Translations under genes and position numbers: made by a program
Source: a virus
Reading direction: 5' to 3' (one strand)
DNA length: 24,126 nucleotides
IMG/VR virus record: IMGVR_UViG_3300044991_000500
Span: 1-24,126 of that record
In this document: positions 951-2,358 of the stretch, one piece after another
How the letters are laid out: the number at the start of each line of letters is the position of its first letter
How positions within the stretch are numbered: position 1 is the first letter of the stretch
The notes under the pieces: model-generated
What the model saw: only the letters and a program-made list of their open reading frames with translations
What the model was told of the DNA's origin: nothing
Databases searched by the model: none

Positions 951-976
951 TTTGCGCGTTGATCAGGCGCGCCCCT
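951..976 (-). repeat. Intergenic hairpin repeat, copy A
   Basis: A 26-base element with 5-bp arms GCGCG (954-958) and CGCGC (968-972) around a 9-base loop, flanked by TTT and CCCT on the plus strand. The same architecture with identical spacing recurs at 1288-1313 and 2322-2347. It lies in the gap between the 60-aa and 68-aa genes and would be in the transcript leader of the latter. Confidence 0.7.
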
Positions 977-1009
977 GAAGGTGGTATTGGCCCCACCCAA
1001 GGCTAAAAT

Positions 1010-1192
1010 TCAAAATTCCTCTTCGGAAAAATGGAAGGCAATGTCCCGCTCGTAAATTAGCACTTGGATTTCGTTGCGCAGAAACATTACGTCAGCGCGG
1101 TTGCTTGCGGTATCAAGCTCAGTGCGAAGTTCAGCAATGGCTCGATTTAATCTTCCAATTTCGCTTTCTTGGTTTTTGGTCGTGTTTTTCAT
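1010..1192 (-). CDS. Small coiled-coil protein, function unknown
   Basis: A 60-aa protein, hydrophilic and almost wholly helical in appearance, with heptad-like spacing from about residue 9 to 45 (EIGRLNRAIAELRTELD). It ends in an acidic tail, FSEEEF. No family is recognised. It could be a small DNA-mimic, an adaptor or an oligomerisation peptide; none of these is testable from sequence alone. It lies between copies A and B of the hairpin repeat. The ATG at 1190-1192 is the only plausible start in frame. Confidence 0.55.
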   Translation of the reverse strand: MKNTTKNQESEIGRLNRAIAELRTELDTASNRADVMFLRNEIQVLIYERDIAFHFSEEEF

Positions 1193-1287
1193 TCGTTTGG
1201 TCTTTTGTTTTTCGTTGGCTCGTTGCCTTCGATGCGGTTACCATAAACCCATCCTTGGGTTGGTGGAAAGAAAAAAGTAAAAGAGTT

Positions 1288-1313
1288 TTTGTGCGTTGAA
1301 CAGTCGCACCCCT
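1288..1313 (-). repeat. Intergenic hairpin repeat, copy B (compensated base pair)
   Basis: Arms GTGCG (1291-1295) and CGCAC (1305-1309) surround a 9-base loop. Relative to copies A and C, the second base of the left arm is T instead of C, and the matching base of the right arm is A instead of G. The stem is therefore preserved by a paired change. The copy starts nine bases past the DUF932 stop on the transcribed strand. Confidence 0.75.
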
Positions 1314-1322
1314 GCTCGGTCT

Positions 1323-2291
1323 TTAGTTTAGAGTGGAAGCAAATTCCCCAGCCATTTCAAGGGCTCGGGATTTCATTCTGGCTCCTGATCCGTTAGCCAT
1401 GTAATCGAGCGTTTCAGTGGTTCGGCGGTGGTCAACATATTCGGTCACTGCGTTGTAAGCTCCCCAAAGCGTTCCCCTAACACCGCGAATCTCGGAACCA
1501 GTCCCACCGTCATGCAAGTTGGTAATTTCTTCGATCACGTTTTTGCATCGGGTTGAAAGATCATCCCAAGACCCGTAGAGATTGCCGGTTACAACTCCTC
1601 GGAGGTAATTGCTGACATCCCCCGAGGAAAGCTGCGTAGAAGCCATCACCTTAAACTTTGATTTAGCATCATCGAAGAACACCCCGGCTTTGCCCAAAAG
1701 CTCACCAGCGAGCTTCAGGCGGCTTTCAGCGTTGATCGTATGGTAAACCCGAATCGTCTCGTCTTCTTTCGAAGACCGAAAGGCTGCCCCGAGCGTATTG
1801 GCGCAAACCACCCGAATCGGAGTAAAGAATCCGGTCACAGGCGAGGAGCCGTCGTGTGAATTGGTCAGTAGCAGGTATTGGCAAACGCTGTCATTGGGCA
1901 GAACGTCAAAGGATTCAGGCAACCGTGCGAGCATCCAGACCCGCTCCCCATCACCAAGCACCCCTGCGGATTCGTACCGAGCTTTGTCGTCTCCAAATAC
2001 CCCATCGAAGAAGGAGAATGCGGAGCGATTCTGCAAGGGCTGGTAGCGGCTACCTACAACTCCAAGAATCCGTTCGGTATCTTTGCGAATGATCGCCCGC
2101 TTGTTGGGAACCTCGACTCCGTTGGAGAGGTACATTCGTTCCATTTCAACCTCCCAGTTCATATTAGCTTCACGGAGGGCGGTTTCAGCGGTGAAGCAGT
2201 CAGGCAAAACCTGACCTAGCCGGTGCCATGCGCTCTGTTGAGCAAGTGCGATTGAGGCCCGACCGTTGTTGATGTTAATGTTGTGGCTCAT
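1323..2291 (-). CDS. DUF932 (phage/plasmid-like) protein
   Basis: This 322-aa protein matches the DUF932 / phage-plasmid-like family (TIGR03299 type). It shows AWHRLG at residues 21-26, ILGVVGSRYQPLQN at 75-88 and the family hallmark LLLTNSHDGSSPV at 140-152, followed by PIRVVCANTL. Its length is normal for the family. Members are widespread on phages and plasmids, but the biochemical role is not established. Here it sits as a single gene between two copies of the hairpin repeat, set apart from the recombination operon by its own leader, which suggests separate control. The start ATG (2289-2291) has an A/T-rich leader without an SD. Confidence 0.85.
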   Translation of the reverse strand: MSHNININNGRASIALAQQSAWHRLGQVLPDCFTAETALREANMNWEVEMERMYLSNGVEVPNKRAIIRKDTERILGVVGSRYQPLQNRSAFSFFDGVFGDDKARYESAGVLGDGERVWMLARLPESFDVLPNDSVCQYLLLTNSHDGSSPVTGFFTPIRVVCANTLGAAFRSSKEDETIRVYHTINAESRLKLAGELLGKAGVFFDDAKSKFKVMASTQLSSGDVSNYLRGVVTGNLYGSWDDLSTRCKNVIEEITNLHDGGTGSEIRGVRGTLWGAYNAVTEYVDHRRTTETLDYMANGSGARMKSRALEMAGEFASTLN

Positions 2292-2321
2292 AGTTTTGAT
2301 TTAATTTTTGATTGAAAAGTT

Positions 2322-2347
2322 TTTGCGCGTTGGAGAGTCGCGCCCCT
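2322..2347 (-). repeat. Intergenic hairpin repeat, copy C
   Basis: Arms GCGCG (2325-2329) and CGCGC (2339-2343) enclose the 9-base loop TTGGAGAGT, with the same TTT and CCCT flanks as copies A and B. It lies between the stop of the 131-aa gene and the start of the DUF932 gene, about 30 bases upstream of that start, so it should be in the DUF932 leader. Confidence 0.75.
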
Positions 2348-2358
2348 CTTGAAAATTT

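Follow-up and report, generated by a model that had tools for sequence, protein, structure and literature searches.

The 24,126-nt window, the whole stretch of viral DNA that was analysed, has the gene content of a tailed phage (terminase, lambda-type portal, Clp-type protease, RecT, exonuclease and RusA), with all main genes on the - strand; megablast of the window against phage records found no relative. Three consecutive gaps around a DUF932 gene, of 83, 130 and 67 nt, each hold one copy of a short element (Table 1), and the other junctions mostly overlap or leave gaps of <20 nt. A preliminary description of this DNA had reported three copies of identical geometry, confined to these gaps. 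Both observations held: the pattern AGGGGYGCGMCTNNNCAACGCRCAAA has exactly three matches in the window, at 951-976, 1288-1313 and 2322-2347, all on the - strand, and there was no fourth match even when up to 3 mismatches were allowed. In 100 dinucleotide shuffles of the window we obtained 0 matches, again even at 3 mismatches.

Table 1 Predicted RNA elements and the gene between them in the window. Parts are listed in the order in which they are transcribed.
Feature	Position	Strand	Parts	Spacing	Basis
Pseudoknot copy 1	954..978	-	S1a TCAG 978-975; GG 974-973; S2a GCGCG 972-968; C 967; S1b CTGA 966-963; TCAA 962-959; S2b CGCGC 958-954	stop at 1010 lies 31 nt before; ATG at 926 lies 27 nt on	pattern match; both helices covary across phages
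Pseudoknot copy 2	1291..1315	-	S1a GCAG 1315-1312; GG 1311-1310; S2a GTGCG 1309-1305; A 1304; S1b CTGT 1303-1300 (one G-U); TCAA 1299-1296; S2b CGCAC 1295-1291	DUF932 gene stop 7 nt before; ATG of a 37-aa ORF at 46 nt or of a 60-aa ORF at 98 nt downstream	pattern match
DUF932 gene between copies 2 and 3	1323..2291	-			Pfam PF06067, E=3.4e-52; PHROG 1221
Pseudoknot copy 3	2325..2349	-	S1a AGAG 2349-2346; GG 2345-2344; S2a GCGCG 2343-2339; A 2338; S1b CTCT 2337-2334; CCAA 2333-2330; S2b CGCGC 2329-2325	9 nt after stop at 2359; DUF932 ATG at 2291 33 nt on	pattern match
Second, different candidate pseudoknot	980..1003	-	GCC/GGC and GGTGG/CCACC; AATA linker	directly 5' of copy 1

The second candidate pseudoknot has counterparts in about 20 related contigs, with compensations of the types GGRTGG/CCAYCC and SGCC/GGCS, and in those contigs the main element is always next behind it. 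Elsewhere in the window, a strong fold at 2870-2950 on the - strand (z -3.1, -32 kcal/mol) is followed by a U run; it lies in the 200 nt that separate the RusA-like gene from the gene at 2359-2754 and may be terminator-like or a small RNA.

Covariation of two interleaved helices

To look for relatives we scanned IMG/VR with a pattern in which the core was fixed and the two bases before AGGGG and four loop bases were free. At least 120 stretches matched, where we estimate that about 5 would be expected by chance. The 115 distinct matches among those listed, which were not selected for pairing in the outer part of the first helix (S1), formed our covariation set. The highest mutual information of all column pairs fell on -1 and +12, both of them free in the pattern, which form C-G 58 times, G-C 36 times, A-T 13 times and T-A 7 times (99% Watson-Crick). 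The pair -2:+13 ranked second (83% Watson-Crick), and the two outer pairs use all four pair types. The covariation of these columns indicates that XYAG before the GG pairs with CTY'X' in the loop, and therefore that the fold is an H-type pseudoknot. The third-ranked pair, +5:+21, is the variable pair of the inner helix (S2), with T-A in 61 matches, C-G in 53 and T-G in one. This is the pair that had been singled out as compensated between the window copies (GCGCG/CGCGC in copies 1 and 3, GTGCG/CGCAC in copy 2); the compensation is real, and the pair is Watson-Crick in 114 of 115 matches elsewhere.

With its support from strong covariation, the element is a predicted 25-nt H-type RNA pseudoknot on the transcribed strand, with the consensus N4-GG-RYGCG-A-N4'-NYAA-CGCRY. 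Its layout is S1a(4) - GG - S2a(RYGCG) - A - S1b(4) - NYAA - S2b(CGCRY) - A, in which S1, of 4-5 bp and free sequence, and S2, RYGCG:CGCRY, are interleaved in the order S1a-S2a-S1b-S2b. An invariant GG linker precedes S2, YAA joins S1 to S2, and an A comes after the element. S1 can form in all three window copies (TCAG/CTGA, GCAG/CTGT with its one G-U, and AGAG/CTCT). The inner helix of the hairpin proposed in the preliminary description is thus part of the fold, but a simple hairpin is not the whole of it: the 9-base loop supplies half of the second helix. The extent also needed adjustment, as the element begins 2 nt earlier on the transcribed strand. AGGGG comprises a part of S1 (AG) and the GG linker.

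Additional scans bore on the two helices separately. When the scan was blind to S1, this helix was fully paired in 89 of 100 distinct matches, including CCGG/CCGG, ATGG/CCAT and GCTG/CAGT; when it was blind to S2, that helix was fully paired in 8 of 71 matches, one of which carries a G-C to A-T change (ATGCG/CGCAT). A flexible descriptor found 88 distinct elements in real sequence and 2 in reversed sequence, and a looser genome-wide descriptor was dropped because its control gave as many matches as the real sequence. Among distinct elements with at least three S1 pairs, all four pairs form in 202 of 228. The covariation score of 56 distinct 25-mers was 0.430, compared with 0.127 for shuffled alignments (0/500) and 0.01-0.07 for slid structures; these 25-mers had been prefiltered for ≥3/4 S1 and 5/5 S2 pairs, which inflates their pairing percentage, and the unfiltered set of 115 matches is the better evidence. 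Single-sequence folding of the three window copies was unremarkable (z-scores -0.6 to -0.8, from a tool that cannot score pseudoknots), and because these values give no energy support, the evidence for the structure of the window copies is covariation, not stability.

The core is strongly conserved while the sequence of S1 varies freely, and compensatory changes occur in both helices across viruses, in line with the earlier proposal of selection on the folded transcribed strand. The non-Watson-Crick pairs in S2 are exclusively G-T or T-G on the coding strand (4, versus 0 A-C), which favours RNA of the coding strand, although the numbers are small. Two findings that the preliminary description had named as counting against it, uncompensated arms and random positions, did not appear: uncompensated arms are almost absent, and the elements are not placed at random. 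The search of other phages that it had suggested yielded many more copies, with further compensatory changes and again in gaps.

Searches of Rfam 15 at gathering and relaxed thresholds gave no match for the window, and 15 related loci gave only tRNAs, consistent with the suggestion of a new RNA element. In the open PMC subset, which is the literature covered here, we found no description of it. As kinds, H-type pseudoknots and intercistronic elements are known. What appears undescribed, within the scope of these searches, is the present family, with its breadth and placement.

Position between genes and comparison with known RNAs

In every case examined, the element sits in an intergenic gap and is codirectional with the flanking genes. 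Its upstream neighbour in these cases is a codirectional gene or a tRNA; we saw no clear case with a divergent upstream neighbour, an arrangement that would be rare anyway. We analysed the context of 259 distinct elements, and the distance to the preceding stop codon was counted for 240. Thirty-five elements lie 5 nt and 33 lie 6 nt from the stop, and only 1 of the 240 is closer than 5 nt. From frameshift signals it is known that an intact pseudoknot just fits the ribosomal mRNA entry 5 nt after the A-site codon. The lower limit of 5 nt suggests a fold that has to stay intact next to a terminating ribosome.

On the downstream side, an ATG lies within 75 nt in 250 of 259 elements, at a distance of at least 7 nt (mode 7-30 nt, with individual modes at 7, 11, 15 and 27; most at 7-40, spread from 7 to >60). 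This proximity is what would be expected of a leader controlling how the next gene is translated, either because it docks on the 30S platform or because it binds a phage or host regulator that blocks or opens the start site; in the L012 group, where the AUG is 7 nt away, the element would have to touch the initiating ribosome. We consider such a leader unlikely. The genes on the upstream side group into 136 clusters and those on the downstream side into 107, and the downstream genes have no common function (SLT lysozyme, ERF, helicase, DUF932, tiny membrane peptides). The spacing to the ATG varies from 7 to >60 nt, and actinophages have a separate Shine-Dalgarno sequence behind the element. 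The downstream partner can also be a tRNA (3-12 nt behind the element at L127, L128, L138 and L142), a terminator (L095) or a convergent gene (L296 and L339); cases with no downstream gene are few, about 10. As a general rule, therefore, the translational leader offered in the preliminary description is not supported. No gene was shared by all loci with the element; the search for one returned only families of the commonest contig groups. The genes behind the element often encode single peptides of 24-50 residues, apparently with one membrane segment (L004, L031, L042, L045, L067 and L088; for example MKKETAQLLAVFLVACYLIGQLQDIYSK).

The element resembles several known systems. Frameshift and readthrough pseudoknots, such as those of beet western yellows virus and murine leukaemia virus, are compact H-type folds of about 25-28 nt. 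They are thus similar in size, and their first helix starts 5-9 nt after the A-site codon. However, the reading frames of the ORFs flanking our element are unrelated (95/74/64), and no fusion protein could arise where a tRNA, a terminator or a convergent gene follows; a frameshift or readthrough signal was rejected on these grounds. An intrinsic terminator was likewise rejected, because an A and mixed or A/C-rich sequence, not a U tract, stands behind the element, and at L095 and L139 the terminator is a separate hairpin behind it. Type III toxin-antitoxin RNAs are tandem pseudoknot repeats beside a toxin gene, and here we found single copies dispersed over different gaps. The pseudoknot in the leader of phage T4 gene 32, an autoregulation operator, also lies in phage mRNA before a start codon, but it serves one gene, whereas our element precedes >100 unrelated gene clusters.

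The preQ1-I and SAM-II riboswitches, too, are H-type pseudoknots of small size and lie close to start codons of phages or bacteria, and preQ1-I measures about 34 nt. A very small riboswitch binding a putative metabolite or ion would fit this size and topology, and the invariant unpaired GG and AA could make a pocket. We regard it as highly improbable. A riboswitch class would be expected to precede one pathway; the 107 downstream clusters, with SLT, ERF, helicase, DUF932 and others, share none. The sequence differs from preQ1-I and SAM-II, there is no Rfam match and no expression platform, and some copies stand before tRNAs and terminators. The RNase III intercistronic sites of phage T7 and plastid intercistronic expression elements (PMC2230500) are likewise short, structured, gene-independent and located between cistrons of a polycistronic transcript. 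Those sites are long hairpins or are protein-bound, whereas the present element is a predicted pseudoknot and any processing at it is putative.

Spread among phages and plasmids

One exact 25-mer occurred 6 times among the IMG/VR matches listed and 46 times in a complete scan, on which basis we estimate that about 900 IMG/VR contigs carry the element. The strict pattern occurs at only ten places in 257 Gb of bacterial and archaeal genomes. Nine of the ten fit the full pseudoknot; several are on phage-like contigs with endolysin and exonuclease neighbours, and one lies behind a chromosomal zinT gene. This last copy (L126, position 2651, in a Rhodobacteraceae genome) forms a full pseudoknot soon after the zinT stop, with no codirectional gene behind it; a conserved host RNA linked to zinT was rejected, as only 1 other match was found in 198 sampled Rhodobacteraceae genomes. 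Contigs of metagenome-assembled genomes (MAGs) that carry the element are labelled Lachnospiraceae, Chloroflexi and Akkermansiaceae, and judging from base composition, leader sequences and MAG labels, many environmental contigs would derive from phages of Bacteroidota or Verrucomicrobia.

Among named phages, the element is found in Bclasvirinae (mycobacteriophage cluster B: LilMcDreamy, Vincenzo, Calamitous and Laurie), in Pclasvirinae (cluster P: Fishburne and others), in DillTech15 and Mendokysei, in Microbacterium phage Pumpernickel, and in Corynebacterium phages BFK20 and PSonyx, with phi674 identified by BLAST match only. Phapecoctavirus has a variant with a weaker S1, and the Corynebacterium plasmids pCGR1 and pCRULAC1 also carry the element. 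DillTech15 is the only Cheoctovirus among the matches listed, and its module is common to cluster P: Fishburne (NC_021302, 43147-44970) and DillTech15 (NC_051647, 46353-48176), from different clusters, have the element in the same gene module, and the spacing is identical.

Two Corynebacterium phages contain altered forms. In PSonyx (L137), the gaps at about 61-164, 1760-1840, 2091-2222 and 2455-2585 hold longer-loop relatives shortly after stop codons, for example GGTG-GG-AAGCG-CA-CACC-ACAAATCA-CGCTT; when tightly defined, this variant was found in only 3 contigs. In BFK20 (L135), a copy at 2393-2434 has decayed by deletion, such that GGGGGCGCG is fused directly to the leader CACCAACCAAGGAGAACATAATG, which also stands behind the intact copy.

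Strict copies number mostly 1-3 per genome, and no particular neighbour is required. Such a pattern could suit a trans-acting or decoy RNA, a pseudoknot released or displayed so as to titrate a ribonuclease, a defence factor or some other host protein; its position would need only to be transcribed and untranslated. Consistent with this idea, the core is strongly conserved despite the free S1, and copies occur in the tRNA clusters of L142 and L138, where RNase P would release the pseudoknot. However, the element forms neither a multicopy array nor a dedicated small-RNA gene, its copies lie in operon gaps, most phages of the clusters that have it lack it, and the titrated partner is putative. 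We consider a decoy quite improbable.

Mosaic junctions and a possible boundary role

Of 242 pairs of related loci (pairs that are not independent), 196 lose sequence similarity at the element; control points at distances of 300 and 600 nt show such a break in about 3-11% of pairs. Pairs of loci that share the downstream gene have different upstream genes in 73% of cases at the element versus 43% at the next junction, the pairs again not being independent; the reverse comparison, with the upstream gene shared, gave no excess over the neighbouring junction. These breaks argue that the element marks the 5' border of exchanged modules. This association with the downstream gene, kept when the gene in front is replaced, is also behaviour that a translational leader would show.

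A DNA site for exchange of gene cassettes, folded as single-stranded DNA in the manner of an integron attC site, would produce such breaks. L265 and L278 fit this picture, in that their upstream 60 nt are identical and they differ in the element (a C-G to T-A switch in S2) and in the gene behind it. Like attC sites and REP elements, ours is a structured intergenic repeat at gene or module borders. Those, however, are recombination or transposition sites at the DNA level, and ours is a covarying pseudoknot in 1-3 copies. Where examined, it always has the same strand as its flanking genes, and a DNA site would not require this. The G-T and T-G pairs of the coding strand, few as they are, also speak against a DNA site, and phage gene borders break anyway, as the 43% at the control junction illustrates. 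Ordinary homologous recombination at a short conserved sequence, or selection that keeps the element whatever gene precedes it, is a sufficient explanation. We consider an attC-like site improbable.

The element probably has a job in viral messenger RNA, given its presence in the gene gaps of viruses that infect very different bacteria. The reading we favour, at a rough probability of 0.4, is a cis-acting intercistronic boundary element that would set or protect transcript ends, an inferred mechanism. The pseudoknot would act in cis on the polycistronic transcript: it would fold once transcription has passed the stop codon and keep its fold next to the terminating ribosome. Its GG/GCG-CGC/AA core would be bound by, or would block, a widely conserved host factor, such as a ribonuclease or the ribosome. 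The RNA on either side would thereby gain a defined or protected end, and neighbouring genes or tRNAs could be expressed independently. A boundary role would explain how the element works between any pair of genes and why it is kept when flanking genes are swapped. Since the function seems to be carried by the fold and the GG / GCG-CGC / YAA core, with indifference to the neighbours and a dispensable downstream gene, a boundary element fits best. The function would also have to work in hosts with and without Shine-Dalgarno-type starts and ahead of tRNAs. Four findings stand against it. Most copies are found 7-40 nt ahead of a start codon, the position expected of a leader. Among related contigs the element accompanies the downstream gene more than the upstream gene, which speaks against a pure 3'-end element. 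With 1-3 strict copies per genome, most gene junctions are without one, and the cases that lack a downstream gene number only about 10.

That the element is spread across phages of Actinobacteria and MAG contigs from several phyla speaks for a conserved host factor or for an RNA that is self-sufficient. A broader proposal, which we hold to be doubtful, is a universal phage RNA device with a new mechanism, acting on a host component common to distant phyla (ribosome, RNase or RNA polymerase) and carried along in gene shuffling. If true, few natural RNA structures that have a conserved function would be smaller. Retention of the pseudoknot in Actinobacteria phages and in contigs assigned to Bacteroidota-, Verrucomicrobia-, Firmicutes- and Chloroflexi-type hosts would point to a common rule of phage mRNA organisation, one that annotation has missed in the 'empty' gaps of much-studied mycobacteriophages. 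The small size of the element eases synthesis, folding and mutation, and its presence in phages of the laboratory hosts M. smegmatis and C. glutamicum makes direct tests of function and partner possible. It could, in addition, be used to mark the borders of modules in phage genomes.

A few metagenomic contigs start at the element or no more than 8 nt from it, with the element at position 1 in L245 and at position 8 in L048 and L186, as if assembly or the genomes break there.
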